NCBI GenBank assembly: GCA_024742405.1
Contig: JANSYP010000006.1
Location: forward strand, 62,001 to 126,000
Source of the DNA: Paracoccaceae bacterium
Lineage (GTDB): Bacteria > Pseudomonadota > Alphaproteobacteria > Rhodobacterales > Rhodobacteraceae
Length of the DNA stretch: 64,000 nucleotides
Reading direction: 5' to 3'
The position numbers were made by a program, and so were the translations under genes. The notes beneath the pieces were generated by a model, which was not told where the DNA came from, did no database searches, and was given only the letters and a program-made list of their open reading frames with translations. Numbering within the stretch: the stretch's first letter is position 1; every line of letters begins with the position of its first letter. This document shows, one piece after another, positions 45,758 through 62,741 of the stretch.

Positions 45758-45767
45758 AGGCGTGCCA

Positions 45768-46973: not shown

Positions 46974-46983
46974 GAGGCCAGCA

Positions 46984-47733: not shown

Positions 47734-47743
47734 GGGGCACGAG

Positions 47744-48433: not shown

Positions 48434-48464
48434 ACAGACCCAATCCCAGAAGGAGAACCCCCCA

Positions 48465-49694
48465 ATGGCTGAAACGTTGATCTCGGTCGATCTGAGCGAA
48501 AGCCCGACGACCAATGAGAACATCCATAACCGTTGGCACCCCGACATCCCGATCGCGGTCTGGGTCGACCCGGGGGACGAGTTCAAGATCGAGACCTATG
48601 ACTGGACCGGCGGGCAAATCAAAAACGACGACGACGCGTCGGACGTGCGCGATGTCGAGCTGGAGCAGGTCCACTACCTCTCCGGCCCCATTGGAGTGAA
48701 GGGCGCAGAGCCCGGCGATCTGCTGGTCGTCGAAATCCTCGATATCGGCGCCAAGGAGGACAGTCTCTGGGGCTTCAACGGTTTCTTCTCAAAGCAGAAC
48801 GGCGGCGGATTCCTGACCGAGCACTTCCCCGAGGCGCAGAAAACCATCTGGGATCTCAAGGGCATGTTCACCGAGAGCCGCCACGTGCCAGGTGTGAAAT
48901 ACGCAGGCCTCATCCATCCCGGCCTGATCGGCTGCCTGCCCGACAAACCGATGCTGGATATGTGGAACGAGCGCGAGACGAAGCTCGTGGACACCGACCC
49001 CGACCGTGTGCCCCCGTTGGCCGCCCTGCCCAACACTCAGGCCGCCCATATGGGCAAGATGACCGGCGAGGCCCGCGACAAGGCCGCTGCCGAAGCCGCC
49101 CGCACCGTGCCGCCGCGCGAGCATGGCGGAAACTGCGATATCAAGGATCTCAGCCGCGGATCCAAGATCTACTTCCCGGTCTATGTCGATGGCGCAGGAC
49201 TCTCGATGGGGGATCTGCACTTCAGCCAGGGCGATGGCGAAATCACCTTTTGTGGCGCCATCGAGATGGCCGGTTGGCTGCATCTGAAGGTTACGCTGAT
49301 CAAGGACGGCATGACGAAATACGGGGTCAAAAACCCGCTCTTCAAACCCTCGCCGATCACACCGAAATACGACGACTTTCTCATCTTCGAGGGGATCAGC
49401 GTCGATGAGCAGGGTGAGCAGCACTATCTCGATGTCCATATCGCCTATCGCCAGGCCTGTCTGAATGCGATCGAGTATCTGAAGAAATTCGGCTATTCCG
49501 GCGCCCAGGCCTATTCGATCCTCGGCACCGCACCCTGTCAGGGCCACATTTCGGGCGTTGTGGATATCCCCAATGCCTGCGCGACCCTTTGGCTGCCGAC
49601 GGACATTTTCGAGTGGGATCTGATGCCGAATGCCGATGGACCGGTGAAGTATCTCGACGGGTCGGTTCAGGTCCCGCTGGCCCCGGACCTCTGA
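48465..49694 (+). CDS. fmdA: formamidase
   Basis: A 409-residue acetamidase/formamidase family protein. The N-terminus reads ETLISVDLSESPTTNENIHN. Later segments include GFNGFFSKQNGGGFLTEHFP, HGGNCDIKDLSRGSKIYFPV and GDLHFSQGDGEITFCGAIEM, all typical of FmdA. It hydrolyses formamide to formate and ammonium. An AAGGAG site precedes the ATG. It follows urtE after a short gap, so uptake and hydrolysis are co-regulated. No urease genes are visible in the window. Confidence 0.93.
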   Translation: MAETLISVDLSESPTTNENIHNRWHPDIPIAVWVDPGDEFKIETYDWTGGQIKNDDDASDVRDVELEQVHYLSGPIGVKGAEPGDLLVVEILDIGAKEDSLWGFNGFFSKQNGGGFLTEHFPEAQKTIWDLKGMFTESRHVPGVKYAGLIHPGLIGCLPDKPMLDMWNERETKLVDTDPDRVPPLAALPNTQAAHMGKMTGEARDKAAAEAARTVPPREHGGNCDIKDLSRGSKIYFPVYVDGAGLSMGDLHFSQGDGEITFCGAIEMAGWLHLKVTLIKDGMTKYGVKNPLFKPSPITPKYDDFLIFEGISVDEQGEQHYLDVHIAYRQACLNAIEYLKKFGYSGAQAYSILGTAPCQGHISGVVDIPNACATLWLPTDIFEWDLMPNADGPVKYLDGSVQVPLAPDL

Positions 49695-49701
49695 GGCGGA
49701 C

Positions 49702-50031
49702 ATGCCAGTATACGACTACAGCTGCCCCACCTGCGGGCCATTCGAGGCGCTGATGCCGATGGCCCGCTGCAAGGACCCAGTCACCTGCGGGGCGTGCGGC
49801 GCAACGGCACCGCGCGTCCTGCTCACCGCTCCGGCGCTGGCCAATATGGGCACTGGCCGGCGGCGGGCGCACGAAACCAACGAGCGCGCGGCGGACAGTC
49901 CGAAGAAATCCTCCCACGGCCCGGGCTGCTCCTGCTGCGGCGGGAGAAAGAAAATCAATTCGGGCACTCTACAGCGCCCGGACGGATCGAAGAGCTTTCC
50001 CAAGAAGCGTCCCTGGATGATTTCTCACTAG
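49702..50031 (+). CDS. fmdB: FmdB-type zinc-ribbon protein
   Basis: A 109-residue protein whose N-terminus is the FmdB regulatory-type zinc ribbon: MPVYDYSCPTCGPFEALMPM and VTCGACGATAPRVL, with two CxxC pairs. A second cysteine cluster, GPGCSCCGGRKK, follows. FmdB of Methylophilus is linked to amide-induced genes, but how it acts is unclear. It begins eight bases after fmdA. Confidence 0.85.
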   Translation: MPVYDYSCPTCGPFEALMPMARCKDPVTCGACGATAPRVLLTAPALANMGTGRRRAHETNERAADSPKKSSHGPGCSCCGGRKKINSGTLQRPDGSKSFPKKRPWMISH

Positions 50032-50383: not shown

Positions 50384-51067
50384 TCAGCCATCAGAGACGA
50401 GTTCGATGATGGCCTGCGACGTAGCCGCATTGTGCGCGACGAGCCGGTCGGCGACATCGAACCGTGCACGGATGCGCATCGCTCCCATGATACCATCATG
50501 TTCTTCGAGCGACTGCTTCACCCGTTCGGGATCGTCATTAACTTGATAGCGCGCGCGCAGAACCTTTGTCTGCAGCCGTTCGTAAATGCTCACCACCTCC
50601 CTATTGCCGGCAAGCTGTGCCATGCGGTGGTGAAACGCCTCGTTGAGTTCCGTGTAAAGCTCGTGGGTTTCGGCGGCTTCCGCGGCGACCAGATCATCAT
50701 GCAGCCGCTGCAGCGACGCCAGATCCTGATCAGTGGCTTTCTCGGCTGCGTTCAGACCGATGAAGTGCTCGATCACGCCCTTTGCCTCGAACACGTCCGC
50801 CAAATCATCGCTGTTGAGCGGGGTGACGACGGCCCCGCGATTGGGTCTGAGCCTCACCAGGCCTTCCACCGACAGCGCCTTCAAGGCTTCTCGCAATGGG
50901 GTACGCGACACATCAAGTTGCGCGCACAGATGCGCCTCGGGCACCCGTACCCCGGCAGGCAGATCACCGCGCACAATCTTCTGCCGCAACGCCGCAATCA
51001 GGCGGCCGTGGAGATCGACAGCCGCGCCCGAAGCTCCGTCTTGAGGTTCGGGCTGGTCGAGCATCAT
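50384..51067 (-). CDS. GntR family transcriptional regulator, FCD type
   Basis: A 227-residue repressor. N-terminal winged helix: LIAALRQKIVRGDLPAGVRV and LDVSRTPLREALKALSVEGL. C-terminal FCD ligand domain with helices such as LNEAFHHRMAQLAG and the His residues expected to bind metal (RLVAHNAATSQ). The ATG at 51067 overlaps the stop of the upstream isomerase-like gene (ATGA). FCD members usually respond to organic acids. It probably controls the neighbouring transporter and amidohydrolase genes. Confidence 0.9.
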   Translation of the reverse strand: MMLDQPEPQDGASGAAVDLHGRLIAALRQKIVRGDLPAGVRVPEAHLCAQLDVSRTPLREALKALSVEGLVRLRPNRGAVVTPLNSDDLADVFEAKGVIEHFIGLNAAEKATDQDLASLQRLHDDLVAAEAAETHELYTELNEAFHHRMAQLAGNREVVSIYERLQTKVLRARYQVNDDPERVKQSLEEHDGIMGAMRIRARFDVADRLVAHNAATSQAIIELVSDG

Positions 51068-51846
51068 TTTTGGATCCGCTTTGTGAAAATCTGACCATAG
51101 GGCGCCAGCGCGCTCTGGTCGATGTCGAAGAGATTCAGCGTGCCCCAGAGCGTCACGGCGATGGAATCGAGCACCGGGATTCCGAACTCCGCCTCGATCT
51201 CGGCCGCGACGAAGGGCCCGCGCATGTTGGTGCAGACAATGGCCACCGCGTCGACGCCCTGGCCGGCGACCTCGCGGCACATCTCGGCGACGCGGTCGGG
51301 AGAGATCTCGGCGAAGCTGAAATTGTCACTCAGATCCTCGCGACAAGTCGCGGCAATCTCGATGCCGATCGTCGCGTAGTTGCGGACAATGGCGGCTTCG
51401 ACATCGGACGAATAGGGCGTCACGAGACCGATGCGGCGAACGCCGAAGGCTTCGAGCGCCGCATTGAGGCTCACGATGGCAGAGGTCGCCGGGCACCCGG
51501 CCCGATCCTCCAGGGCGGCACATAGCCGGGCATCGGTGTCAAACCCGCGCCAACTGGCCGAAGTGCCGTTCCAGGCAATGGCAGACAGTTTCGCATCGGC
51601 CAGAAGATCCCCAGCCGCAAGGATCGGGTCGAGCGAGAACTGCGCGTCAGCCGCTTCGTCCAGTGCGATCCGCGTGACCTGAAAGCGCGAGAAATGGACA
51701 CCGACCCGATCCGCTAAGGGCGCTGCGAGCAGCGCGGTGGCCGGCTCCAGCGCCGTGTTCGACGACGGCACAAGCATTCCGATCCGCAAATCTGGCACGC
51801 TGCGCAGGGTCAACGGCGCAAATTCACCGGGCATTTCCGCACTCAT
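51064..51846 (-). CDS. maleate cis-trans isomerase-like protein (Asp/Glu racemase superfamily)
   Basis: A 260-residue protein of the maleate isomerase/arylmalonate decarboxylase group. Signatures: LRIGMLVPSSNTALEPATA, AIAWNGTSASWRGF where family members often have a catalytic Cys, RRIGLVTPYSSDVEAAIVRN and VAIVCTNMRGPFVAAEIEAE with a second-site Cys. The first catalytic Cys appears replaced by Ser/Asn (WNGTSAS), so a plain maleate isomerase reaction is uncertain. The ATG at 51846 has a GGAG site. It is co-transcribed with the GntR gene and divergent from tctB. Confidence 0.75.
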   Translation of the reverse strand: MSAEMPGEFAPLTLRSVPDLRIGMLVPSSNTALEPATALLAAPLADRVGVHFSRFQVTRIALDEAADAQFSLDPILAAGDLLADAKLSAIAWNGTSASWRGFDTDARLCAALEDRAGCPATSAIVSLNAALEAFGVRRIGLVTPYSSDVEAAIVRNYATIGIEIAATCREDLSDNFSFAEISPDRVAEMCREVAGQGVDAVAIVCTNMRGPFVAAEIEAEFGIPVLDSIAVTLWGTLNLFDIDQSALAPYGQIFTKRIQK

Positions 51847-51887
51847 TCTGGAACTCCACTTGATCGAAACACAGCAATTCCCAGCAA

Positions 51888-51899
51888 TTTGCATGCAAA
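51888..51899. promoter_or_regulatory. palindrome TTTGCATGCAAA in the divergent region
   Basis: A perfect 12-base palindrome about 40 bases upstream of the isomerase-like gene, in the 219-base AT-richer gap before tctB. It is a candidate operator for the adjacent GntR regulator, but the FCD-type core (TGGT-type half sites) is not obvious, so binding is uncertain. Confidence 0.35.
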
Positions 51900-51966
51900 A
51901 TCTGCGTGGATCAACTGAATATTGGTTAACCCATCTCCGCCCTTCCTGCGTGCAGAAACGCATATT

Positions 51967-51978
51967 TTTTGATCAAAA
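51967..51978. promoter_or_regulatory. palindrome TTTTGATCAAAA upstream of tctB
   Basis: A perfect 12-base palindrome about 90 bases upstream of the tctB start. GntR/FCD operators often have a TTGATCAA-like centre, so this is the better candidate of the two palindromes. The position fits control of the tct transcript. Confidence 0.4.
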
Positions 51979-52065
51979 TGGGAATTTTGTGCCCAGTTTC
52001 TCTCTTTAGTGTTCCAGAGTCAGATCGAGACGGGTAGTCTAGATTGCATACAATCCTGGAAGATC

Positions 52066-52557
52066 ATGACACCGGAGCCTCCGCCAGACCATCCGACGCC
52101 GCGCGCCGATCTTTGGATCGGCTTGTTTGCGTTTGTCTTCGGCCTTGCGGCTGCCGGGTTGGTTCCTGGCGAGGTTGCGAAAGACGGCTTGACGAAATTT
52201 GGCGATGTAAGGTCCCCGGCCTTCTTTCCGATCACCGCAGCGGCCTTTCTGGTCGTGCTGTCCGTCGCCCTTGTGCTTCGGGCCGTTCGAGCGGGCGCTC
52301 TTAGCGGCATCGAGACCGGCGTCGCGAGACCGTCACCCAAGGTGCTCGCGGTCGGCGGAGCCCTAGCCTTGGCCGGAGTTGCGATTTTTTGGCTCGGGTT
52401 CTTCGTCACCGCGGCGCTCCTGATTGCCGGACTCACCTGGATTTTCGGAGAACATCGCCTGCTCCGCATCGCAACACTTGCGGTCTGCGTGCCCCTCGGC
52501 ATCCAGATCCTCTTTCGCGAGATGCTGAATGTCCTGCTGCCATCGGGTGTCTGGTGA
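52066..52557 (+). CDS. tripartite tricarboxylate transporter small membrane subunit
   Basis: A 163-residue TctB-type protein with four predicted helices (LWIGLFAFVFGLAAAGLVPG; PAFFPITAAAFLVVLSVALV; GGALALAGVAIFWLGFFVTA; LLRIATLAVCVPLGIQILF). It is the small membrane subunit of a TTT-family transporter. The ATG at 52066 follows a GGAAG site. It overlaps tctA by one base (TGATG). Confidence 0.88.
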   Translation: MTPEPPPDHPTPRADLWIGLFAFVFGLAAAGLVPGEVAKDGLTKFGDVRSPAFFPITAAAFLVVLSVALVLRAVRAGALSGIETGVARPSPKVLAVGGALALAGVAIFWLGFFVTAALLIAGLTWIFGEHRLLRIATLAVCVPLGIQILFREMLNVLLPSGVW

Positions 52558-54083
52558 TGCTCGCGGACCTGGCAGCCGGTTTCTCACTCATCCTCGATCC
52601 TGCAGTGATCGGGGTGGCGCTTGCCGGTCTGCTGGCGGGGATTCTGGTGGGCGGTCTGCCGGGGCTGACGGCGACCATGGCGGTGGCAGTCCTCGCGCCG
52701 TTCACCTTCATGATGGACACGCTGATCGGGCTTCCGTTCCTTCTGGGCGTGTACAAGGGCGCGATCTATGCCGGGTCGATCCCGGCGATCCTGATCAACA
52801 CTCCGGGCACCGCTGCGGCCGCTGCGACCGCGGCCGACGGAAACGCGATGGCCCGCAGTGGGCGAGCGCGGCAAGCGCTGGAGATCAGCCTCTACGCCTC
52901 GGTGATTGCCGATCTGATCGCGACGATCGTACTGATCGCGGTGGCCGCTCCGCTGGCGTCAATTGCCATCAAGGTCGGCTCGCCGGAGTTCACGCTGCTC
53001 TATGCCATTGCCCTGACAATGGTCGCGGCGGTTTCGGGCCAGGACATGCTGAAGGGGATGATCGCTGCGGTGCTCGGCGTGATGATTTCTTTGATCGGGC
53101 TCGACCCGATGTCCGGCGCGCAACGCTATACCTTCGACACAACGCTGCTCTTGGGGGGGATTTCGCTGATCCCGCTTCTGATCGGGATGTTCGCATTGAG
53201 CGAGATCCTGATCCGGGCCGAGGACCAACTCAAGGGCACAAGGCCCGGTTCGATCGACGCAAAGCGTGCATCGCAAGGTCTTTCGCTGTCCGGCTTGAAA
53301 CGACTCATGCCCACGATCCTGCGCTCGACCGGCATCGGCACCGCCTTGGGCAGCCTGCCCGGTCTCGGCGCAGAGATCTCTTGCTGGGTCGCCTATGGTG
53401 TGGCCAAGCGGACCTCGAAAACCCCCGAGGCGTTCGGCAAGGGCGCACCCGAAGGCGTCGCCGCCGCCGAAGCCGGCAACAATGCGGTTTGCCCCGCGGC
53501 GCTGATCCCGATGACCGTGTTCGGTATTCCGGGCGACACGATCACCGCCGTTCTCCTGGGCGCGTTCATGGCCCAGGGTCTGATGCCGGGTCCACTGATG
53601 TTCGCGCGCGATGCCGAGACGGTTTACGCGATTTTCGCCTTTTTGCTCGTCTCCAACGTGATGCTGCTCTTCGTTGGGCTCTGGGCCATTCGCTACATGC
53701 AACGGATCGTCCTGATCCCGAACGCGTTGCTTTATCCGGCGGTGGCAGCGTTCTGTTTCGCCGGCGCCTTTGCCGTGAACAACGCGGGCTTCGACATTGT
53801 GATCATGCTTGTGGGCGGAATCGCCGGCTATGCCATGCGCAAAACCGGCATGCCCATTGCGCCCTTCGTGATCGGCATGCTGCTGGCCCCCGGTCTGGAA
53901 AACTCGCTGCGCCAGTCGCTGACGGCGTCGCGCGGCTCACTCCTGATTTTTGTCGAAAAGCCGGCCGCGCTCGCGCTTCTGGTGATCCTCGCCGGCCTGG
54001 TGGGGCTTTTTGCCCTGCAGGGGTGGCGGCGCGGTGCCCCCGCAAACACCTCCCTCAACCAGCAAAATGGAGAGACAAGATGA
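52557..54083 (+). CDS. tripartite tricarboxylate transporter large permease (TctA)
   Basis: A 508-residue membrane protein with about 11-12 helices. TctA motifs: AGILVGGLPGLTATMAVAVL and AGSIPAILINTPGTAAAAAT near the N-terminus, and GSLPGLGAEISCWVAYGVAK with PEGVAAAEAGNNAV in the second half. It imports organic acids using a binding protein. The ATG overlaps the tctB stop by one base. The frame continues upstream but this is the family start. Confidence 0.92.
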   Translation: MLADLAAGFSLILDPAVIGVALAGLLAGILVGGLPGLTATMAVAVLAPFTFMMDTLIGLPFLLGVYKGAIYAGSIPAILINTPGTAAAAATAADGNAMARSGRARQALEISLYASVIADLIATIVLIAVAAPLASIAIKVGSPEFTLLYAIALTMVAAVSGQDMLKGMIAAVLGVMISLIGLDPMSGAQRYTFDTTLLLGGISLIPLLIGMFALSEILIRAEDQLKGTRPGSIDAKRASQGLSLSGLKRLMPTILRSTGIGTALGSLPGLGAEISCWVAYGVAKRTSKTPEAFGKGAPEGVAAAEAGNNAVCPAALIPMTVFGIPGDTITAVLLGAFMAQGLMPGPLMFARDAETVYAIFAFLLVSNVMLLFVGLWAIRYMQRIVLIPNALLYPAVAAFCFAGAFAVNNAGFDIVIMLVGGIAGYAMRKTGMPIAPFVIGMLLAPGLENSLRQSLTASRGSLLIFVEKPAALALLVILAGLVGLFALQGWRRGAPANTSLNQQNGETR

Positions 54084-55039
54084 AGCTCTACGCAACCCTG
54101 ATCGCGACGGCCGCGTCATTGGCAGCGTTCGCCCCCGCCACGGCCCAGGAGGTAACCTTCGACAAGCCGATCCGCTTTGTCACGCCCTACCCGCCCGGAG
54201 GTTCGCATTCGCTCCATGCCGGAATCATCACCACGGCGGCCGAGCCGCATTTCAACCAATCCCTGATCTCGGTGATCCGGGCGGGCGGCGGCGGTGCGGT
54301 GGGCGCCACCGAGGTCGCCAACTCTGAGGCCGATGGCTACACGCTTCTGTTCGGCGACCCCACGATCAACTCCCTGAGGCCCCAGGTTGAAGAACTGGCC
54401 TATGGTGTCGAAGACTTCATCCCAGTGGCGCGGATCAATTACAGCCCGGCCATTTTCGTGGCTCGTGCGGACGCACCTTTCGCAACAATGGACGAACTGG
54501 TCGCATACGCCGAGGCCAACCCCGGGGATCTGATCTATAGCTCCGACAATCTCAATGGCTGGACCTACACTGTTTTTGAGCTGCTGAAGGCGCGCACAGG
54601 CGCCGACATGACCGGCGTCGAATATGGCGGCGGCGGACCCGCGGTCGCCCGTCTGCTGGGCGGCGAAACCATGGCCTACGCGGGCGATATCAGCGTTGTC
54701 GGGGAACATATCGAAAGCGGTGACTTGGTGCCGCTCTGCGTGACCGACACCGTCCCGGTGGAGGCGCTGCCCGATGTGCCCACCTGCCCGGATGCGGGCT
54801 ATGACGTCGTGTTCCAGTTCTGGCGCGGTGTCCTGGCGCCCGCCGGTACGCCCGACGAGGTCGTTGTGGCGCTCTCCGACGGGTTCGAGTCCCTAATGGC
54901 CGACGAAGGTTTCTTGAGGTTGATCGGGCGGATCGGCTCTTCGATCCAGTTCGCCGACCATGAGGAGTTCGACGCCCTGCTCACGCAGGAAATCGCCGCC
55001 ATGGCGGATGTGGCAGCCCTAGTGGACGCAAACAACTAA
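54080..55039 (+). CDS. tripartite tricarboxylate transporter substrate-binding protein (TctC)
   Basis: A 319-residue periplasmic protein with signal peptide (YATLIATAASLAAFAPATAQ). Family features: KPIRFVTPYPPGGSHSLHAG at the N-terminus of the mature part, VIRAGGGGAVGATEVANS, and a conserved GGGPAVARLLGG region. The ligand cannot be deduced; the family covers di- and tricarboxylates and other compounds. The ATG overlaps the tctA stop by four bases. Confidence 0.9.
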   Translation: MKLYATLIATAASLAAFAPATAQEVTFDKPIRFVTPYPPGGSHSLHAGIITTAAEPHFNQSLISVIRAGGGGAVGATEVANSEADGYTLLFGDPTINSLRPQVEELAYGVEDFIPVARINYSPAIFVARADAPFATMDELVAYAEANPGDLIYSSDNLNGWTYTVFELLKARTGADMTGVEYGGGGPAVARLLGGETMAYAGDISVVGEHIESGDLVPLCVTDTVPVEALPDVPTCPDAGYDVVFQFWRGVLAPAGTPDEVVVALSDGFESLMADEGFLRLIGRIGSSIQFADHEEFDALLTQEIAAMADVAALVDANN

Positions 55040-55097
55040 GCGAAGCAGGTGGCCGCGGGCGCGACGGGCGCTCGCGGACCTCGACATAAGGCACCCG

Positions 55098-56612
55098 ATG
55101 GCCGATCTGATCCTCCGAAACGTGCTGGCAAAGCTGCCCGACGATGTCGCCGAAGCGCCGAAACGCGTGGACATAACAGTGCGTGGCAATGTGATTGCCG
55201 ATGTCGCTCCCCCGGGAGAATCTGCTCCGGCGGGCGGGGTAGCGCTCGACTGTACAACGCTTTTTGCCGTTCCCGGTTTCATCAACGGGCATCATCACAG
55301 CCACGAAAACTTCCAGAAGGGCCGCTATTCCGGTTTGCCGCTCGAGCTGTGGATGAATCTCGTCCGCCCGCTGAAACCGATCCCGATGACGACCGAGCAG
55401 GTCTATCTACGCACGCTCATAGGGGCGATCGAAGCGCTCCGGTCCGGCACGACGACCATCGTCGACGACATGAATGTCAGCCCGATCCTGCGCCCCAACC
55501 ATGTCGAGGCCGCAATCCGTGCCTATGAGGACATCGGTATCCGGGCGCATCTCGGGATCACGCTGTTTGACCGGCCATTCTATCGCGGTGTGCCCTTCGT
55601 GGACGCGCATTTTCCGCCCGAGCTGCTGGAAGCGCTGTCGGCCACCGAGGCCACCCCGGCCGAAGAGGTGCTCGACTTCGCCGACGGCCTCGCACGGACG
55701 CGCCACCACACGGACAACCGCGTGGCATACATCGCGGCCCCGTCGGCACCGCAGCGCTGTTCAGACGACTTCTTGATGCGCGTGCGCGATATGGCCGACC
55801 GCCATGGCATTCCGGTCATCATCCATGTGCAAGAAACCCGGATGCAGGTGGTCACCGGCTATGAGTTTTACGGCGCGACCATGATCGCGCATCTCTCAGA
55901 ACTGGGGTTTCTGAAGCCCGCAACCTCCATCATCCACGGTGTCTGGGTTAGCCCGACGGACCTGAACCTGATCGCGGCCAGCGGCGCAAGCATCCAGCAC
56001 AACCCCAACAGCAATCTCAAGCTCGGCAGCGGGCTGATGCCTATGCGCGAAATGCTCGACCGCGGTATCAATGTGTCCCTCGGCACCGATGGCTGTGGAT
56101 CCATCGAATCCGTCGACATGCTGCGCGTGATGGCCTCGACGGCCTTGGTTCAGACACTGCACGATCAGGACCACAACGACTGGATCAGGCCTGCGGAGGC
56201 CTTCCATGCCGCGACCGCGGGCGGCGCGAAGGCCCTTGGGCGCGAGGATATCGGGCGCTTGTCGCCTGGCGCCAGAGCCGACATCGCGCTCTACGATACG
56301 CGGTCCATCGCTTTCACCCCTCTTAACAACGCTGTCCAGCAATTGACCCTTGCCGAGACGGGGCGCGCCTTGCGGCACCTTCTGATCGATGGGGAGTTTG
56401 TCATACGCGACGGCGCCCTGACCCGCATCGACGAAGCCGCGATCCTGGAGCGGATCCATGAGGAAGCTGCGATCCTGGAACCTGAGATCGCCGCGTCCGA
56501 GGCCGAAGTGACCGCCCTACGGGCGCCTTACGAAGCGATCTATCGCCAATGCTGCGAAACGCCGATCCCGGCCGATATCCTGCCGGCAAAGCTCCCAAGG
56601 CCACCGCCGTGA
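55098..56612 (+). CDS. amidohydrolase, ATZ/TRZ (cytosine deaminase-like) family, copy 1
   Basis: A 504-residue metal-dependent hydrolase. Metal motif near the N-terminus: PGFINGHHHSHENFQKGRY. The later His is in PVIIHVQETRM, another in SIIHGVWVSPTDLNLIAAS, and the catalytic Asp region is NVSLGTDGCGSIESVDMLR. This places it among AtzA/TrzN/chlorohydrolase-like enzymes that hydrolyse C-N or C-Cl bonds in heterocycles. The substrate is not deducible. It starts 58 bases after tctC and is followed by a TRAP transporter; a related enzyme is encoded at 60337-61854. Confidence 0.88.
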   Translation: MADLILRNVLAKLPDDVAEAPKRVDITVRGNVIADVAPPGESAPAGGVALDCTTLFAVPGFINGHHHSHENFQKGRYSGLPLELWMNLVRPLKPIPMTTEQVYLRTLIGAIEALRSGTTTIVDDMNVSPILRPNHVEAAIRAYEDIGIRAHLGITLFDRPFYRGVPFVDAHFPPELLEALSATEATPAEEVLDFADGLARTRHHTDNRVAYIAAPSAPQRCSDDFLMRVRDMADRHGIPVIIHVQETRMQVVTGYEFYGATMIAHLSELGFLKPATSIIHGVWVSPTDLNLIAASGASIQHNPNSNLKLGSGLMPMREMLDRGINVSLGTDGCGSIESVDMLRVMASTALVQTLHDQDHNDWIRPAEAFHAATAGGAKALGREDIGRLSPGARADIALYDTRSIAFTPLNNAVQQLTLAETGRALRHLLIDGEFVIRDGALTRIDEAAILERIHEEAAILEPEIAASEAEVTALRAPYEAIYRQCCETPIPADILPAKLPRPPP

Positions 56613-56682
56613 CCTGCAGCTCTTCGACTCAGGTCGCACCCACAACGCTGCACACCATTGTTCATACCAGAAAGGAAAAACG

Positions 56683-57720
56683 ATGAAGCTGATCCTCTCA
56701 ACCGCACTTGCCACCGGAATGGTGATGGCGGGCGCGCCCTCCGTCTCTGCGCAGGCGATGCAGTTCGTGTCGCAAAACCAGGAACAGCGCGCCCAGAACC
56801 CGCCCGAAATGGCAGCGATGGAAGCTCTGTCGGAGGCCGGGTTCGACATCAATCGCAGCGAGTTTCAGGCTCTGAACATCAACCTGGCGGACGGTCTGCG
56901 CCTTGTCAGCACGGGCGCCTTCGACATGGCGACCATCCAGGTGGGCAGCGTCGCCAAGGATGACCCGTTCCTTGAGGGTATCGATCTGATCGGTGTTTCG
57001 ACCAACATGACCGATCTTGCGGCGGCCGTTGAGGCTTACCGGGAGGTATTCAACGCGCGCCTCGGCGAAAAGTTTGGCGTCAAGGCAGTAGCGATCTGGC
57101 CATTCGGACCGCAGGTGTTCCTGTGCAATGCCGACATCAGCTCGCTCGACGATCTCGATGATCTCAAGGTCCGCTCCTTCACGGCCTCCATGTCGACACT
57201 TCTGGAAAATCTGGGTGCCACGCCTGTCACCCTGTCGTTCCCAGAGGTCTATCCTGCCCTCCAGCGCGGCGTCGCGTCCTGCGGAGTGACGTCTCCCACC
57301 TCATCGAATACCGGCAAGTGGCCGGAAGTGACCACGAACCTCTATCCGCTCTCGGTCTCAGGGTCGGTACAGTCTCACATGGTCAGTCTGGACTGGCTCA
57401 ACGAATTGACAGATGAGCAGCGCACGGCGTTCGAAGCGGCTATGGCCGAAATGGAAGCAGCACTTTGGGAAACGGCCATCACGACCAATGGCACGGCGCA
57501 ATCCTGTTCGACCGGCGGCGAGTGCCCCGAAGGCGGCATTTACACGTCCTACGACATGGCGCTGGTCCCTGTGAGCGATGCCGACAAGGCCAAGGTTGCA
57601 GAGATCTCGGTCACGAAGGTTCTGCCGGAATGGGCTGAGAAATGCGAAGCTTCCTATCCTGGCTGCACCGCGATCTGGAATGAAACCGTCGGCGCCGCGC
57701 GCGGACTTGAGATCCAGTAA
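56683..57720 (+). CDS. TRAP transporter substrate-binding protein (DctP-type)
   Basis: A 345-residue periplasmic protein with a signal peptide (MKLILSTALATGMVMAGA). The mature part follows the DctP pattern, with the carboxylate-binding Arg in DLDDLKVRSFTASMSTLLEN and the FPEVYPALQRGVASCGVTSP segment. Two Cys pairs near the C-terminus (SCSTGGEC and CEASYPGC) suggest periplasmic disulfides. The TRAP family imports organic acids using ion gradients. It precedes the dctQ- and dctM-type genes. Confidence 0.9.
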   Translation: MKLILSTALATGMVMAGAPSVSAQAMQFVSQNQEQRAQNPPEMAAMEALSEAGFDINRSEFQALNINLADGLRLVSTGAFDMATIQVGSVAKDDPFLEGIDLIGVSTNMTDLAAAVEAYREVFNARLGEKFGVKAVAIWPFGPQVFLCNADISSLDDLDDLKVRSFTASMSTLLENLGATPVTLSFPEVYPALQRGVASCGVTSPTSSNTGKWPEVTTNLYPLSVSGSVQSHMVSLDWLNELTDEQRTAFEAAMAEMEAALWETAITTNGTAQSCSTGGECPEGGIYTSYDMALVPVSDADKAKVAEISVTKVLPEWAEKCEASYPGCTAIWNETVGAARGLEIQ

Positions 57721-57727
57721 GGCGCAT

Positions 57728-58324
57728 ATGCCCGATCCGCGTATCCTGCGCGCCTTCGAGCATGTCAGTGTCGCGCTCGCGCTCGTCGCGGGCGTGGCCA
57801 TTGCCCTTTTGGCCGTACTGATCACGATCGACATCGTCGGTCGCGACTTCTTTGGCGTGTCGGTGCAGGGCACGGACGAGATCGGCGGCTATGTGCTGGC
57901 CTTTGTCGGGTCGCTCGGCATGGCGCTGACCCTGATGCGGCGCGGGCATCCGCGTATCGATCTGTTCTTTCGTATCTTCCCGCAGGGTCTGCGCAATGGC
58001 CTGAATGCCCTGGCGCAGATCACCATCGCGGGCTTTGCGATCTTCATGGCCTGGCACGCCTGGGGCGAGCTGCAGACCACCTTGCGGTTCGGCGCGATCA
58101 CGAACACGCCGCTCCAGACGCCGCTTTGGGTGCCCCAGGCGATCTGGGTCGCCGGCATGGGGTTTTTCGCGCTGACAGCCTGCCTGACCTCGGCCCATGC
58201 GCTGTATCTGCTCGTGACCGACCCGGCGGCCGTGTCTCGATTTTACGGCTCGCCCACCGTTGACGAGGAGGTCGGCCACTATGTCGATCCGATAGACGTG
58301 GAGCGCACCGATGCTCGGGATTGA
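57728..58324 (+). CDS. TRAP transporter small permease (DctQ-type)
   Basis: A 198-residue membrane protein with four helices, including VSVALALVAGVAIALLAVLI and VGRDFFGVSVQGTDEIGGYV, which is the DctQ signature region. The ATG follows the dctP stop by seven bases, and its 3' end overlaps dctM by 14 bases. It is the small subunit of the TRAP permease. Confidence 0.9.
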   Translation: MPDPRILRAFEHVSVALALVAGVAIALLAVLITIDIVGRDFFGVSVQGTDEIGGYVLAFVGSLGMALTLMRRGHPRIDLFFRIFPQGLRNGLNALAQITIAGFAIFMAWHAWGELQTTLRFGAITNTPLQTPLWVPQAIWVAGMGFFALTACLTSAHALYLLVTDPAAVSRFYGSPTVDEEVGHYVDPIDVERTDARD

Positions 58325-59591
58325 AGGCGCCGCCATCGGCTTTGCGCTGCTGCTGTTTTTGCTCTTTATCGGGCTGCATATCGCGACCTCGCTCTTTCTG
58401 GTCGCGGCGCTCGGGGCGTGGATCTTTTTCGGCGACACGATGATCCGCCCCTTCGGCACGATGATGTGGGGGACGCTCAACAACTTCCTGCTCGTGGCCA
58501 TTCCACTTTTCGTCTTCATGGGCGAAATTCTGGTGCGCGGCGGGGTGACCGAACGGATGTACCGCGCTCTGGCGGACTGGACGAAGCCCCTGCCCGGGGG
58601 TCTGCTGCATACCAACATCGCGGCCTCGACCGTTTTTGCCTCGATCTCCGGCTCCTCCGTGGCGACCGCAGCCACCATCGGTACGGTGGCCTTCCCGACC
58701 TTCCGGCGTCAGAACTATGCCGAGGCCTGGGTCGCGGGCAGTGTTGCCTCGGGCGCCACGCTCGGCATTCTGATACCGCCGTCGATCAACCTAATCATCT
58801 ATGGGGCAGTGACGAACACCTCCATCGGCGCGCTCTTCACCGCCGGGATATTACCGGGCATCATCCTGGCCTCGGCCTTCATGGGCGTGATCATGATCGC
58901 GTGCCTGATCAACCCGAGCATTGCCGGTCGCCCTGAACGCATCGCACCGTGGCGAGACCGCCGAAGGCGCCTGGTCGATCTGGTCCCGCCGCTCGTCATC
59001 TTCATCCTCGTGATGGGGTCGATCTATCTCGGGTTCGCGACCCCGACAGAAGCGGCCGGCGTGGGCGTCATGGCGGCGGTTGCGCTGACGGCCTTCTACG
59101 GCACGCTGAACCTCAAGATGCTGCGCGAGGCGATGCTGTCGGCCGTGACGACCACGGGCATGACTTTGCTCATCCTGATCGCAGCATTTTACCTGAACTT
59201 CATTCTCGGCGTTCTTGGCGTGCCGGCGCAGGTCTCCGGCTTCGTGTCCTCCTTCGACGTGGAGCCGGTGATGATGATCCTGTTACTTGTGCTGCTCTAT
59301 ATGGTGCTGGGGTGTTTTCTCGACGCGCTGGCCATGATGATCGCCACGATCCCGATCATTCTGCCGATCGTCACGCTGATCGGCTATGACAGCATCTGGT
59401 TCGGGATCTTTCTGGTGCTGATGTGCGAACTGGCCCTGATCACTCCGCCGGTGGGGATGAACCTCTATGTCACGCAAAGCGTGCGCGGCCGCGGCGACGT
59501 GGGCACGGTGATCGTCGGAGTTCTGCCATTCGTGCTGTGCATTCTGATCGTCGTCGCCCTGATCACGGTCTTTCCGGGCATCCTGATCTGA
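58311..59591 (+). CDS. TRAP transporter large permease (DctM-type)
   Basis: A 426-residue membrane protein with about 11-12 helices. Family segments: NNFLLVAIPLFVFMGEILVR, ASTVFASISGSSVATAATIG, GATLGILIPPSINLIIYGAV, and GCFLDALAMMIATIPIILPI. It forms the ion-coupled translocation path with DctQ. The stop overlaps the racemase start by one base (TGATG). Confidence 0.93.
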   Translation: MLGIEGAAIGFALLLFLLFIGLHIATSLFLVAALGAWIFFGDTMIRPFGTMMWGTLNNFLLVAIPLFVFMGEILVRGGVTERMYRALADWTKPLPGGLLHTNIAASTVFASISGSSVATAATIGTVAFPTFRRQNYAEAWVAGSVASGATLGILIPPSINLIIYGAVTNTSIGALFTAGILPGIILASAFMGVIMIACLINPSIAGRPERIAPWRDRRRRLVDLVPPLVIFILVMGSIYLGFATPTEAAGVGVMAAVALTAFYGTLNLKMLREAMLSAVTTTGMTLLILIAAFYLNFILGVLGVPAQVSGFVSSFDVEPVMMILLLVLLYMVLGCFLDALAMMIATIPIILPIVTLIGYDSIWFGIFLVLMCELALITPPVGMNLYVTQSVRGRGDVGTVIVGVLPFVLCILIVVALITVFPGILI

Positions 59592-60340
59592 TGGCGACGA
59601 GGCTGCGCATTCTGGCGGTGAACCCGAACACCTCGCAAGAGGTCACGGAGGCCTATCTCCGGGAAGTGCGTCGGATCGCACCAAAGGGGGTGACCATCGA
59701 CGGCGTCACCGGGAAGTTCGGGGCGCGTATCGTCTCGACCAAGGCGGAAAACACCATCGCGGGGCACGCGATGCTGGATCTGATTGCGGAACATGGCGCG
59801 GGGTACGATGGCGTCATCCTGGCGATCTCCTTTGATACCGCGCTGCGCTCTGCCCAGGAGGTCCTGACCGTGCCGGTGGTGGGGGTCACGCAAGCCGCGC
59901 TGGCCGCGGCCGGAGCGCAGAGCGCGGATCTCGGCGTGGTCGTTTTCGGCGACAGCAGCCTGCCGATGTATCAACATGTGATCGATGGCTACGGCGTGCA
60001 CCCTGTCGGCTACGAGAACGTCTGTCTTGGTTCAGCCGAAGCCTATCTTGCGCCCCAGGCCTTGGACCAGGAGGTCGTCGCGGCCTGCAGGCGCCTTGCC
60101 TCGGCGGGCGCCGGTGCAGTCGTGATCTGCGGCACGGTCATCGTCGGGATGGCCGCGCGGCTGCAGGCCGAAGCGGGCGTGCCGCTCTTTGACGGCGCTT
60201 CGGCGCTCGCACTCTGTCTGGACCGTATCCGCGCAGGGGACAGCGGGCCGGTGCGCCCCATCCCGCTTGGAGGGACAACCGGCCTGTCGCCGGAGCTTAC
60301 CGCCCTGCTGCGCGGTGACGGACGGAGCGACTCTGGGTGA
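59591..60340 (+). CDS. hydantoin racemase-like protein (Asp/Glu racemase superfamily)
   Basis: A 249-residue protein. N-terminal signature ILAVNPNTSQEVTEAYLREV matches hydantoin/allantoin racemases. The first catalytic Cys position (usually ACFxDPGL) reads AISFDTALRSAQE, so the Cys is replaced by Ser. The second is present in GAVVICGTVIVGMAARLQ. A two-base racemization may be impaired; it could be a racemase variant, decarboxylase or isomerase. It overlaps dctM by one base and copy 2 of the amidohydrolase by four. Confidence 0.8.
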   Translation: MATRLRILAVNPNTSQEVTEAYLREVRRIAPKGVTIDGVTGKFGARIVSTKAENTIAGHAMLDLIAEHGAGYDGVILAISFDTALRSAQEVLTVPVVGVTQAALAAAGAQSADLGVVVFGDSSLPMYQHVIDGYGVHPVGYENVCLGSAEAYLAPQALDQEVVAACRRLASAGAGAVVICGTVIVGMAARLQAEAGVPLFDGASALALCLDRIRAGDSGPVRPIPLGGTTGLSPELTALLRGDGRSDSG

Positions 60341-61854
60341 GTGCCGCGCCGATCCTCTTTCGCAATGTGCGGTTGCTGGATCTCGATGTCGAATCCGGGA
60401 TGACCCAAACATGCGATCTGGTGGTGAGGGACGGTCGGATTTTCCGAACAGGCTCCGACCTCGCCGCGCCGGATGGTGCACATATCGTCGAGGGGCGCGG
60501 CGACCTGCTGATGCCGGGATTGGTCAACGCGCATTTCCATTCTTCGGTCACGCACATGAAGGGACGGCTGCCCTGCCTGCCGCTCGAAATCTTCATGCTC
60601 TACGAAAGCCCGGCGCTCGAAGCCCTGCGGCCCACACCGCGCGAAGCCTATCTGCGCACGATGTTGGGCTGCATGGAAATGCTGCAGACGGGGACGACAG
60701 CGGTACAGGACGATTGCTTTTTCGTCCCCGAGCCCACCACCGAGATCATCGATGCAGTCTGTCAGGCCTATCTCGACAGCGGTATGCGGGCGACGATCGC
60801 GCTGGATGAGCCGGAGCTTTCAGAGATCGAAAAGCTCCCCTTTCTGGGGACGCTGGTTCCTCCGGAGCTGCGGGAACGACTCTCCCGGCGCCCTCAGACG
60901 GGCAAGGACGATCTGCTCGCGCTCTACGATTATCTGATCGGCACATGGCACGGCGCGCACAACGGCCGGATTCAGGCAGCCGTGTCCTGCTCGGCGCCCC
61001 AGCGCGTGACACCGGACTATTTCGCCGCCCTCGACGCACTCAGCCGCCGCCATAACTTGCCCTTCTTCGCCCATGTCCTGGAGACCAAACTCCAGCGGGT
61101 CCTCGGCATCGAAGAATTCTCCGGCAGGTCGCTGGTGCAGTATATCGAAGATCTGGGCGGTCTGAGCGATCGAATGACGCTGATCCATGGCATTTGGGTC
61201 GACGGGGCCGACCTCGACCTGCTCGCTCACCGAGGCGCGAGCGTCGCGCACAACCCGATCAGCAACCTGCGGCTGGGAAGCGGCGTGATGCCGTTTCGGG
61301 CGATGCGCGACCGGGGCATCTCCGTATGCCTCGGGATAGATGAGGCGATCGCCGACGATGCGGTCAACATGTGGTCTGTCATGAAGACCGCAGGCATGAT
61401 CCACACGCTGACAGGGGACGACTACGCCAGCTGGCCTTCGGCACGCGAGATCCTGACGGCTGCTACGCAAGCTGGCGGACAGGCCATGCGACGCCCCGAC
61501 CTGGGCACGCTGAAGCACGGCGCGCCAGCCGATCTGATCCTCGTCGACCTCTCGACCCTGGCGTTTCTGCCCCTCAACGACCTGCCCCGCCAGTTGGTTC
61601 ATGTCGAACTGGGCCAGTCAGTGCGCCTGACGATGGTCTCAGGCCGGATAGTCATGGACGGCGGGCGGCTCCAAACCGTCGATCAGGAGGCGCTCATGCA
61701 GGAGGCGCGGGAGGTCTTTGCCAACCGCGAGCCCGCGCTGATGGAGGCGGCAGAGCAGATGCGTCCTCTGCTGCCCTACTATGACGCGATGTACCGGCGC
61801 GCCTGTGCCACGGATGTCGGCATGGCCCGCAAACTCGGGGCATGGCCGTCATGA
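60337..61854 (+). CDS. amidohydrolase, ATZ/TRZ (cytosine deaminase-like) family, copy 2
   Basis: A 505-residue paralogue of the enzyme at 55098-56612. Metal motif: PGLVNAHFHSSVTHMKGRL. Later His residues in PFFAHVLETKLQRV and TLIHGIWVDGADLDLLAHRG, and the catalytic Asp in SVCLGIDEAIADDAVNMWS. The GTG start overlaps the racemase stop (GTGA). The replaced residues around the first metal motif and the catalytic region suggest a different substrate from copy 1. It is translationally coupled to the racemase upstream and the deacetylase downstream. Confidence 0.87.
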   Translation: MSAAPILFRNVRLLDLDVESGMTQTCDLVVRDGRIFRTGSDLAAPDGAHIVEGRGDLLMPGLVNAHFHSSVTHMKGRLPCLPLEIFMLYESPALEALRPTPREAYLRTMLGCMEMLQTGTTAVQDDCFFVPEPTTEIIDAVCQAYLDSGMRATIALDEPELSEIEKLPFLGTLVPPELRERLSRRPQTGKDDLLALYDYLIGTWHGAHNGRIQAAVSCSAPQRVTPDYFAALDALSRRHNLPFFAHVLETKLQRVLGIEEFSGRSLVQYIEDLGGLSDRMTLIHGIWVDGADLDLLAHRGASVAHNPISNLRLGSGVMPFRAMRDRGISVCLGIDEAIADDAVNMWSVMKTAGMIHTLTGDDYASWPSAREILTAATQAGGQAMRRPDLGTLKHGAPADLILVDLSTLAFLPLNDLPRQLVHVELGQSVRLTMVSGRIVMDGGRLQTVDQEALMQEAREVFANREPALMEAAEQMRPLLPYYDAMYRRACATDVGMARKLGAWPS

Positions 61855-62741
61855 GCCGTCCCTGGGGCTATTCCGCACTGCCGTCGCGCCCTGCGGCCCG
61901 GTGGCCAAATGGCGCACGGGTTGCCCTGTGGGTGGCGGTGGGCATCGAGGCCTACCGCCCCGACCAGGGCCGCACCGAGGATATCCTGCCCCGCGGTCCG
62001 GCCCCGGACCTCGTCAACGCCGCTTGGCGCGACTACGGCAACCGGGTGGGCGCGTTCCGCCTCTTTGACCGGCTTTCGGCGATCGGCATCCGGCCAGCGG
62101 TTCTGTTGAATACGGATGTCTATGACGAGGCGCCGGACGTCCTTGTGGCGGCACGGGCTGTCGGCGCCGAGATCGTCGCGCACGGTCTTTCGAATTCCGA
62201 CAGTCTGACCGACATGTCCCAGGATGAAGAGAGCGACTATATCGCCGCCTGCCACACACGGATCACTGCACAGGAAGCATCGGCTCCGGCAGGCTGGTCG
62301 AGCCCCTGGCTCCAGCATCGCCCCTCGACGCTCGGCACGCTGAAAGCCACGGGATTCGACTATGTGCTGGACTTCCGGCTCGACGATCAGCCGGTCTGGC
62401 TGACCACACCGTCCGGCCCGCTCCTGTCGATCCCCTATGCGACAGAGCTCAACGACAGCTCCACGATGATCGGGCGGTTCCAAAACCCGACCGATTTCGC
62501 GCAAGGCATCACAGACGAGTTCGAGGAAATGCAGAGTGACGCCGGCGGTCAGCCCGCGGTGATGAGCGTTGTTCTGCACAGCTTCATCTCCGGACAGCCC
62601 TTTCGGCTGCGCCCGATAGCACAGGCGCTGGCGCGGATTGCGGCGCGGTCAGATGAGGTCTGGCTGGCGACACCGCGTGAGATCCACACCGCCGTTCTGA
62701 ACACACCGGAACTCGCGACGGGACAGCACGGTCCGCGATAG
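61851..62741 (+). CDS. polysaccharide deacetylase family protein, PuuE/allantoinase-like
   Basis: A protein of about 296 residues of the NodB-type carbohydrate esterase group, closest to the PuuE-like branch. Features: WPNGARVALWVAVGIEAYRP, the metal His in GAEIVAHGLSNSDSLTDMSQ, FDYVLDFRLDDQPVWLTTPS, and VVLHSFISGQPFRLRPIAQA. PuuE-type enzymes can open the allantoin ring, so this may be an amidohydrolase rather than a sugar deacetylase. I use the ATG at 61851, which overlaps the amidohydrolase stop (ATGA); an ATG at 61842 would add three residues. Confidence 0.8.
   Translation: MSRPWGYSALPSRPAARWPNGARVALWVAVGIEAYRPDQGRTEDILPRGPAPDLVNAAWRDYGNRVGAFRLFDRLSAIGIRPAVLLNTDVYDEAPDVLVAARAVGAEIVAHGLSNSDSLTDMSQDEESDYIAACHTRITAQEASAPAGWSSPWLQHRPSTLGTLKATGFDYVLDFRLDDQPVWLTTPSGPLLSIPYATELNDSSTMIGRFQNPTDFAQGITDEFEEMQSDAGGQPAVMSVVLHSFISGQPFRLRPIAQALARIAARSDEVWLATPREIHTAVLNTPELATGQHGPR

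Follow-up and report, generated by a model that had tools for sequence, protein, structure and literature searches.

A gene island in a Paracoccaceae bacterium as a candidate unit for the breakdown of a carboxylated nitrogen heterocycle

Twelve genes at positions 50,384-62,741 of the window, i.e. the whole 64,000-nucleotide stretch analysed, are tentatively read as an accessory unit, probably under GntR control, for the catabolism of a carboxylated nitrogen heterocycle; with its full reaction scheme, this reading stands somewhat below an even chance. The Tct and Dct transporters would import the acid or acids, and one or both of two amidohydrolases, AH1 and AH2, metal-dependent and of the deaminase clade, would act on an imidazolinone- or pyrimidinone-type ring and take off an exocyclic group, an amine being the likeliest, to give a hydantoin or another cyclic ureide. 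The ring would be opened to an N-carbamoyl (ureido) acid by the PuuE-like protein here, or by the D-hydantoinase of relatives; the EutA/AMDase-like protein (EutA-like) would then decarboxylate, rather than isomerise, a malonate-type intermediate, and the racemase-like protein (HydRac) may also act on these intermediates, by a mechanism that needs no cysteine. The reaction order and each substrate are those that we infer; a hydantoin-type intermediate is suggested by the relatives, where a D-hydantoinase, an N-carbamoylase/allantoate amidohydrolase or ErtD/ErtE is also present.

Open reading frame and profile checks (Pfam matches counted above the gathering score) recover all twelve genes in the order and range given by an earlier, sequence-only reading, and support its description of the region as catabolic, with a regulator, hydrolases and a pair of transporters (Table 1). 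Both the tripartite tricarboxylate transporter (TctA, TctB and TctC; Pfam) and the TRAP transporter (DctP, DctQ and DctM; Pfam/NCBIfam) are complete; these transporter families usually carry carboxylates. GntR and the EutA-like gene overlap by 4 bases on the minus strand and are transcribed divergently from the remaining ten genes. The packing is tight, as claimed, but the overlaps are not limited to 1-4 bases: tctB/tctA and dctM/HydRac share 1 base, tctA/tctC and HydRac/AH2 4, AH2/PuuE-like 13 and dctQ/dctM 14, and gaps of 58, 70 and 7 bases precede AH1, dctP and dctQ, respectively, with no terminator-like site listed in the two longer ones. An alternative start, GTG at 52009, is possible for tctB. 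Among the matches listed, no island enzyme reaches the cut-off of an NCBIfam functional model; the PuuE-like gene has no Pfam match at E 0.001 and, among models, matches TIGR03212 only, far below its cut-off. Pfam and NCBIfam profiles find neither a hydantoinase nor an M20 carbamoylase within the island. The upstream formamidase locus was rejected as a part of it, fmdA-fmdB being convergent to GntR.

Table 1. Genes and operator-like sites of the island (window coordinates).
Feature	Position	Strand	Matches and motifs
GntR/FCD regulator	50384..51067	-	PF00392 64 bits, PF07729 68.5 bits
EutA/AMDase-like protein, Asp/Glu racemase superfamily	51064..51846	-	PF17645 75.5 bits, PF01177 49 bits
Operator-like palindrome TTGCATGCAA	51889..51898	.	
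Operator-like site TTGCATACAA	52044..52053	+	
TctB	52066..52557	+	PF07331 51 bits
TctA	52557..54083	+	PF01970 468 bits
TctC solute-binding protein	54080..55039	+	PF03401 136.5 bits
AH1, ATZ/TRZ-type amidohydrolase	55098..56612	+	PF01979 197 bits; motifs SAPQRC, HVQETR
DctP, TRAP solute-binding protein	56683..57720	+	PF03480 67.5 bits; NF037995 73.6 bits, cut-off 50
DctQ	57728..58324	+	PF04290 88 bits
DctM	58311..59591	+	PF06808 297 bits
HydRac, hydantoin/allantoin-racemase-like protein	59591..60340	+	PF01177 101 bits
AH2, second ATZ/TRZ-type amidohydrolase	60337..61854	+	PF01979 139 bits; motifs SAPQR, HVLETK
PuuE-like protein	61842..62741	+	TIGR03212 93 bits, cut-off 424.6; 3cl6 by phmmer

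Two copies of the operator-like motif TTGCATRCAA lie in the divergent promoter region (operator distances computed from approximate gene starts), and TTGCATNCAA is found again at the start of the EutA-like gene in 12 of 22 related loci; GntR probably controls the island. The motif is confined to the region upstream of tctB and the EutA-like gene, none preceding dctP. The TTGCATACAA site overlaps a promoter-like pair of hexamers, the sole one listed there and a weak one, since one such pair was found against 2.7 expected in shuffles.

Several families of the island recur together in other genomes, so that the gene set is more than chance; this is the conserved co-occurrence that the sequence-only reading had named as a check. 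AH1 peptides retrieved 49 loci; after L067-L070 and 11 more with less than 4.5 kb on one side were left out, there remained 34, from 22 genera or bins (labels assigned here; loci of the same genus are not independent), with genes called by a simple in-house caller. An EutA-like gene lies near the AH1 relative in 28 of the 34 loci (16/22 bins), HydRac in 16 (9/22), a D-hydantoinase in 14 (8/22) and, by a looser cut and without a control, a second ATZ/TRZ amidohydrolase in 18 (10/22); the other counts follow a stricter cut, a first count having taken in hydantoinase/amidase matches of 47-67 bits. EutA-like is present in 0/11 controls (two-sided p 8.7e-5 by bins), four of the original 15 having been taken out after the fact as AH2 orthologues; all 15, among them L131, where the gene finder recovered no amidohydrolase, hold one EutA-like, one HydRac and two D-hydantoinases. 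Tct and TRAP are not enriched near AH1 relatives with respect to controls, and PuuE-like genes accompany the control amidohydrolases (5/11) no less often than AH1 (3/22 bins). The complete twelve-gene set was seen in no other locus read; related blocks are present in both soil and sea bacteria.

The island combines two modules, parts of which are found separately in other genomes: module A comprises GntR, EutA-like, Tct and AH1, module B Dct, the racemase-like protein, AH2 and the PuuE-like protein. The transporters of the two modules may import two related substrates, as the sequence-only reading suggested. That these are two independent catabolic operons, adjacent by chance and each with its own substrate, is possible but doubtful. 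Module A is found without B in L022 of Histidinibacterium (10 kb read to either side) and also in L023, where the contig ends within a different TRAP transporter; G523 has parts of B without A (AH2 near dctPQM, 41-68%, and HydRac), G538, G617 and G421 have AH2 and PuuE-like without module A, and operator-like sites precede module A only. Conversely, enzymes of both types are joined in Halomonas-group, Marinobacter and Rubrivivax loci; in nine loci of the Halomonas group and one of Marinobacter, TRAP, amidohydrolase, HydRac, EutA-like, D-hydantoinase, Tct and AH1 genes stand together. Around EutA-like genes elsewhere in the family to which the window belongs (eight of ten other genomes read; G123 and G137 left out), a DctM 47-85% identical to that of the window occurs in 5/8 contexts (a count without background rate), which would tie the module B transporter to a module A enzyme. 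A D-hydantoinase of the L049 type (at least 50% identity) is likewise found in 5/8, that of L049 scoring 789 with NF009941 (cut-off 647). With the 70-base gap free of terminator-like sites, these joined loci also speak against two operons, and operon unity is what we infer for the island.

By its residues, AH1 can be assigned to the ATZ/TRZ amidohydrolases: H65, H67, H243, E246, H280 and D331, which we take to be the metal ligands HxH, H, H and D and the HxxE acid, are invariant in 15 sequences, and Arg220 and Arg248 are invariant as well. None of the best 25 matches of AH1 or AH2 reaches the NCBIfam cut-off for a named ATZ/TRZ function (234.5 and 238.5 at best, against 609), and s-triazine degradation was rejected because both enzymes are below the model cut-offs. 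The predicted model of AH1 (pLDDT 89.6) matches isocytosine deaminase Vcz best (Z 45.5), with adenosine-deaminase-type entries and TrzN at Z 43-45 and imidazolonepropionases at Z 30-32; on this model, the fold appears nearest to enzymes that replace a substituent and less like ring openers. This makes doubtful the stepwise hydrolysis of a cyclic amide, imide or ureide by both amidohydrolases, as first proposed; the cyclic-ureide theme itself holds through the additional enzymes of the relatives. A clearly unlikely alternative is purine or isocytosine scavenging, in which AH1 and AH2 deaminate modified nucleobases or oxidation products (e.g. guanidinohydantoin to allantoin) and the other island proteins break down what is formed: the Vcz match, the N2,N2-dimethylguanine hydrolases included in the AtzB cluster in the consulted part of PMC13054789 and the G617 locus would suit it, but Arg220, Arg248 and the two transporter families suggest an anionic substrate, and Pfam shows neither a xanthine dehydrogenase nor a urate enzyme there. 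In G617, the neighbours of AH2 include a racemase with two cysteines, a PuuE-like gene and an M20 enzyme that exceeds the cut-offs for allantoate amidohydrolase (539 against 479) and for the carbamoylase family (393 against 204); a search of the present genome at E 1e-50, without positive control, gave no M20 enzyme of this type.

In the EutA-like protein, to which the carboxylated-heterocycle scheme assigns the decarboxylation, the AMDase residues G74, T75, S76 and C188 (PMC4996985) are matched by G94, T95, S96 and C205, with G94, T95 and C205 invariant in 17/17 EutA-like sequences, and Y126 by an invariant Y145; P14-P15 and G189 are not matched, P27-S28 and T206 standing there. The protein scores 72.2 with NF052327 (arylmalonate decarboxylase, cut-off 225) and 94.9 with TIGR02990 (EutA, cut-off 318), and ectoine utilisation was rejected on the latter score. 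The best folds for its predicted model (pLDDT 92.5) are maleate isomerase (4fq5, Z 31.8, 1.8 A over 237) and AMDase (Z 29.9), and the N-terminal PSSN is as in maleate isomerase. Of the maleate cis-trans isomerase cysteine pair the second Cys is kept; the place of the first, assigned through the AMDase alignment, the maleate isomerase alignment being gapped there, is taken by Gly-Thr-Ser, a stretch without Cys in 24 sequences including that of the window, and an invariant Cys109 lies further along, in a helix. The protein thus appears to follow the AMDase pattern, Gly-Thr-Ser with a single Cys, and not the isomerase pair. None of the other genes calls for an intermediate of the malonate type, so that the evidence for the decarboxylase step comes down to a few residues.

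In HydRac, the racemase cysteine pair is replaced by Ile and Gly in the alignment of its own family; one gapped phmmer alignment would put a Cys at the second site. Both cysteines are absent in 15 of 17 homologues read and kept in the other two (L108 and L111). The chirality or cis-trans conversion suggested at first is therefore doubtful on both counts, since Gly-Thr-Ser stands at the first catalytic cysteine place of the related isomerases and HydRac lacks both racemase cysteines; however, 5lfd, a solved allantoin racemase chain that HydRac matches by phmmer, has Gly at the first place too, so racemisation keeps some likelihood. A scheme in which a cyclic amide or imide is hydrolysed and its products are truly racemised and cis-trans isomerised, to which superfamily membership, the maleate isomerase fold and PSSN also lend themselves, is judged improbable. 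The Gly of 5lfd and the score of the G617 enzyme as an allantoate amidohydrolase slightly lower the confidence in the carboxylated-heterocycle scheme.

The open-access literature searched gave no match to the island, in agreement with the statement that this is not a described pathway, and known systems resemble it in part. On the Burkholderia ambifaria plasmid NZ_CP152372.1, in an ergothioneine-utilisation-type cluster, an AH1 homologue (39%) that keeps PQRC and ETR lies between hutU- and hutH-type genes, beside the hydantoin-5-propionate amidohydrolase ErtD (681 bits, cut-off 600) and ErtE (616.5, cut-off 520); it would stand where a ring must become hydantoin-5-propionate. The lyase and the hydratase come out as an ordinary HutH (620, cut-off 539) and HutU (629, cut-off 375), below the cut-offs of the thiourocanate models, so the substrate of this cluster is itself uncertain. 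Unlike it, the island has no ammonia-lyase, urocanate hydratase, M20 domain or ErtD/ErtE genes (AH1 and AH2 match ATZ/TRZ models best, ErtD not being among the best 25 matches of either), and it has EutA-like, racemase-like, Tct and Dct genes. AMDases, whose occurrence and putative metabolic function are little known, share with the island the GTS motif, the Cys and the Tyr, and TTT, TRAP or ABC transporters adjoin them (PMC4996985); in contrast, P15 and G189 are not conserved here, NF052327 stays at 72 against 225, and the island has amidohydrolases and no mandelate-racemase-type gene. Hydantoin utilisation (hydantoinase, hydantoin racemase, N-carbamoylase) has in common a racemase-family gene and, in relatives, a D-hydantoinase and the N-carbamoylase-family enzyme near AH2 in G617, but the island has no hydantoinase or M20 carbamoylase; the allantoin pathway (allantoin racemase, PuuE allantoinase, allantoate amidohydrolase) shares the racemase-family and PuuE-like pair and, in G617, the allantoate amidohydrolase-type enzyme; both systems as such were rejected for low scores and missing cysteines. 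The reductive pyrimidine pathway resembles the relatives in a dihydropyrimidinase-type enzyme, but forms a separate cluster, canonical by eye, on another contig, C6. The riboflavin/lumichrome pathway, from the part of PMC12746152 consulted, was considered and set aside, and a link to methylglyoxal-type glycation products is an idea on which the literature searched gave nothing.

A more specific proposal, rather unlikely as a whole, is that the island and its relatives represent a horizontally spread, as yet undescribed pathway that acts on carboxylated imidazolinones substituted at position 2, or on similar cyclic guanidine or ureide acids; two enzymes of the Asp/Glu racemase superfamily would no longer racemise, one having become an AMDase-type decarboxylase that works together with a hydantoinase, the other a cysteine-free enzyme. 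If true, it would provide a substrate class for AH1/AH2-type amidohydrolases, a natural setting for AMDase-like enzymes and, in the cysteine-free racemase relatives, a chemistry new to the Asp/Glu racemase superfamily, within a recurring uncharacterised nitrogen-recycling route of marine and soil Pseudomonadota. A 55% copy of the linked-type hydantoinase lies on another contig of this genome, outside the island, next to SIS-domain (RpiR-like) regulator and ABC-transporter genes and without the operator. Searches with HydRac gave no relative among the viral contigs searched and 2 Methylobacterium records among plasmids.

The region is a real mosaic catabolic island with a conserved core. It belongs to a source genome of 5.02 Mb in 18 contigs (window: 62001-126000 of contig C10), and the gene list of the sequence-only reading was borne out, with twelve genes occupying 50384-62741. 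Every island gene has Pfam support except the PuuE-like one, for which TIGR03212 is the sole match, with a score under the model's cut-off. The widest gaps in the plus-strand run are 58 bases ahead of AH1, the first of the two ATZ/TRZ-type amidohydrolases, and 70 bases ahead of dctP; no terminator-like sites are listed in either gap. The G+C content of the island is not unusual for the window. A transporter-formamidase run, convergent with the GntR gene, reaches up to the island; its FmdA scores 764 bits with NF045496, against a cut-off of 500.

Coordinates of the island genes and of other features discussed in the text
Feature	Location	Strand	Remark
GntR/FCD regulator and EutA/AMDase-like gene	window, within 50384-62741	-	4-base overlap
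tctB-tctA-tctC, AH1, dctP-dctQ-dctM, racemase-like, AH2, PuuE-like	window, within 50384-62741	+	in this order
Branched-chain-amino-acid-type ABC transporter genes, then formamidase FmdA, then FmdB-type zinc-ribbon protein	window 45762-50031		
TTGCATRCAA, two copies	window 51889 and 52044		EutA-like/tctB intergenic region
Second cluster of the same genome (L113)	contig C6, 660001-680000		
DctM fragment adjoining an EutA-like gene (G179)	L149 9148-10104		85% identical to the window's DctM
DUF3830 protein	L049 4184-4639; L071 18596-19000; L061 6418-6843		recurrent in related clusters

A scan with AH1 returned 49 loci at 34-71% identity, found in Histidinibacterium, Rhodobacteraceae MAGs, Ancylobacter, Xanthobacter, Bosea, Rhizobium, Methylobacterium, Caballeronia, Halomonas, Vreelandella, Franzmannia, Marinobacter, Pseudorhodoferax, Rubrivivax and others. 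Neighbours were counted wherever 4.5 kb or more was available on each side, a condition that left 34 loci from 22 genera or bins: EutA-like genes occur near AH1 in 28 loci (16 bins), a second ATZ/TRZ amidohydrolase in 18 (10), racemase-like genes in 16 (9), D-hydantoinase in 14 (8), GntR in 14 (9), OppA in 12 (8), TctA in 11 (5), DctM in 10 (4), DUF3830 in 8 (5), amidase in 5 (4) and PuuE-like genes in 4 (3). The control set comprised 15 neighbourhoods from the window's own family whose amidohydrolase shows 31-38% identity with AH1; a EutA-like gene is present in one, L132, which is itself one of four AH2 orthologues among them (L124, L125, L132, L134). Once these are removed, EutA-like, racemase-like and D-hydantoinase genes are each found in 0 of the 11 remaining controls, with two-sided p values by bins of 8.7e-5, 0.015 and 0.031, respectively. 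The association of AH1 with the EutA-like gene is firm, and those with the racemase-like gene and the hydantoinase are fair. PuuE-like genes, found in 5/11 controls vs 3/22 AH1 bins (p 0.08), are not an AH1-specific association, and Tct and TRAP transporters do not differ between AH1 loci and the 11 controls.

The transporters look exchangeable, and the enzymes look like the core. Locus L022 carries the GntR, EutA-like, TctBAC and AH1 genes without the DctPQM-to-PuuE module, and L023 also has the first module, its contig stopping within a different TRAP transporter; in both, TctBAC is 43-80% and AH1 69-71% identical. Nine Halomonas-group loci and Marinobacter zhejiangensis combine TRAP, an amidohydrolase of cluster c7, racemase-like, EutA-like, D-hydantoinase, Tct and AH1 genes, sometimes with a DUF3830 gene listed between the racemase-like and EutA-like ones. 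Tct is replaced by an Opp-type ABC transporter in Ancylobacter-type loci, and by an amino-acid ABC transporter, accompanied by RidA, in Rhizobium johnstonii pRL10. AH2 stands together with a PuuE-like gene in three genomes (G538, G617, G421); in G523 it has dctPQM (41-68%) and a racemase-like gene nearby, and Salipiger CCB-MM3 encodes an AH2 at 68%. In two other family genomes (L124, L134) and in Salipiger (L074) the AH2 orthologue and a further ATZ/TRZ amidohydrolase form a tandem; the one in Salipiger is about 32% identical to amidohydrolase c31 of R. johnstonii, which stands after AH1 and EutA-like. Close AH1 proteins occur in Histidinibacterium and two Rhodobacteraceae MAGs. The island looks accessory, because no AH1 match above 38% was found in the other genomes among 295 sampled from the family or in the one congener examined. 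The second cluster of the same genome holds an AH1-like amidohydrolase (33%), a DctM relative (30%) and a PuuE-like gene (38%). A full-text literature search brought up no paper that mentions the recurrent DUF3830 protein by name. In L022, L023 and the Halomonas loci, AH1 is directly followed by a gene for a YgjV-type inner membrane protein (11 loci in the initial gene clustering; PF10688 in L049), a place taken in the window by dctP.

EutA-like genes are present in 11 of 198 sampled family genomes, the window's included, and their contexts were read for eight of the other ten. Five (G153, G188, G179, G055, G168) contain a D-hydantoinase with an identity of at least 50%, and five (G083, G055, G040, G168 and, as a fragment, G179) a DctM that shares 47-85% identity with that of the window, a raw count. 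G153 carries its EutA-like and D-hydantoinase genes together with a Halomonas-type TRAP, a racemase-like gene and an orthologue of AH2 (70%); these combinations lead us to favour one functional theme for the island. In G059 a stop interrupts the match, and no companion genes were seen there. The stretch with the DctM fragment in G179 also holds genes judged by eye to be transposases, which suggests that the TRAP module has been lost or transferred.

The sequence-only reading had proposed stepwise hydrolysis of a cyclic amide, imide or ureide with chirality or cis-trans conversion of the product, and the latter steps, though conceivable, are its weakest part. The predicted EutA-like fold resembles 4fq5, a maleate isomerase (Z 31.8), and 3ixl, an AMDase (Z 29.9), far more than allantoin racemase (Z 18.3); the protein has Gly-Thr-Ser where AMDase has Gly74 in place of the isomerase/racemase cysteine, and the alignment with maleate isomerase is gapped at this first-cysteine place. 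Gly94, Thr95 and Cys205 are invariant in 17/17 aligned sequences, Ser96 almost so (Ala in L023), and a further invariant Cys109 is located in a helix; P15 and G189, also typical of AMDase, are not conserved. The protein fails a defining test for each of the labels AMDase, EutA and maleate isomerase. In the family alignment the racemase-like protein lacks both racemase cysteines, as do 15 of 17 homologues, both being kept in L108 and L111; yet one gapped phmmer alignment would allow the window protein's Cys at the second site, and the chain of allantoin racemase structure 5lfd, which may be a mutant, has Gly at the first.

AH1 has a complete metal site and shares SAPQR and ET[RK]xQ with AH2. 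Its model is nearest to isocytosine deaminase Vcz (Z 45.5), adenosine-deaminase-type entries and chlorohydrolase TrzN (Z 43-45), vs Z 30-32 for imidazolonepropionases; invariant Arg220 and Arg248 suggest that the substrate may be acidic. The best functional anchor for AH1-type enzymes is a Burkholderia ambifaria plasmid cluster, where an AH1-like gene accompanies ErtD and ErtE, both over cut-off, and would be a candidate for converting a 2-substituted imidazolone-propionate to hydantoin-5-propionate; the lyase and hydratase of this cluster are ordinary HutH and HutU by score, under the thiourocanate models' cut-offs. In G617, AH2 is accompanied by PuuE-like genes, by a racemase that has both cysteines and by an M20 enzyme over the cut-offs of allantoate amidohydrolase and carbamoylase-family models, a set that fits a hydantoin or allantoin-like route.

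No described pathway with this gene set was recognised, a weak negative since the literature covered is open-access. The nearest systems are gene neighbourhoods of AMDase that include TTT, TRAP or ABC transporters (PMC4996985), N2,N2-dimethylguanine hydrolases of the AtzB cluster (PMC13054789) and the Ert route, known here by NCBIfam model names alone. No island enzyme was placed below superfamily level by a membership test. The island would work like hydantoin or ureide catabolism, by removal of an exocyclic group and then ring opening, with probable decarboxylation. The chemistry of the sequence-only reading should shift in this direction, away from racemisation and isomerisation.

The two TTGCATRCAA copies are the only ones in the 64 kb in a plus-strand scan allowing one mismatch. 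On both strands, TTGCATNCAA gives 3 matches, at these same places, vs 0.31 expected, and 3 were reached in 1 of 100 shuffles. WTTGCATRCAAW occurs at four places genome-wide, two of them in the EutA-like/tctB region; since its reversed control gives 2 forward and 3 reverse matches, single genomic matches are background, but the pair 155 bases apart is not. No copy lies ahead of dctP in the window. Across 22 related loci, TTGNATNCAA is found at the EutA-like start in 12 (L022, L026, L029, L030, L032, L034, L036, L039, L041, L042, L046, L055), mainly as TTGCATTCAA; in L053 there are different variants at other places, and nine loci lack any. The 12 loci, selected for having the site, contain 14 sites over 258 kb, of which 13 fall within about 300 bases of the EutA-like start. 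The island's GntR protein likely binds this operator-like sequence.
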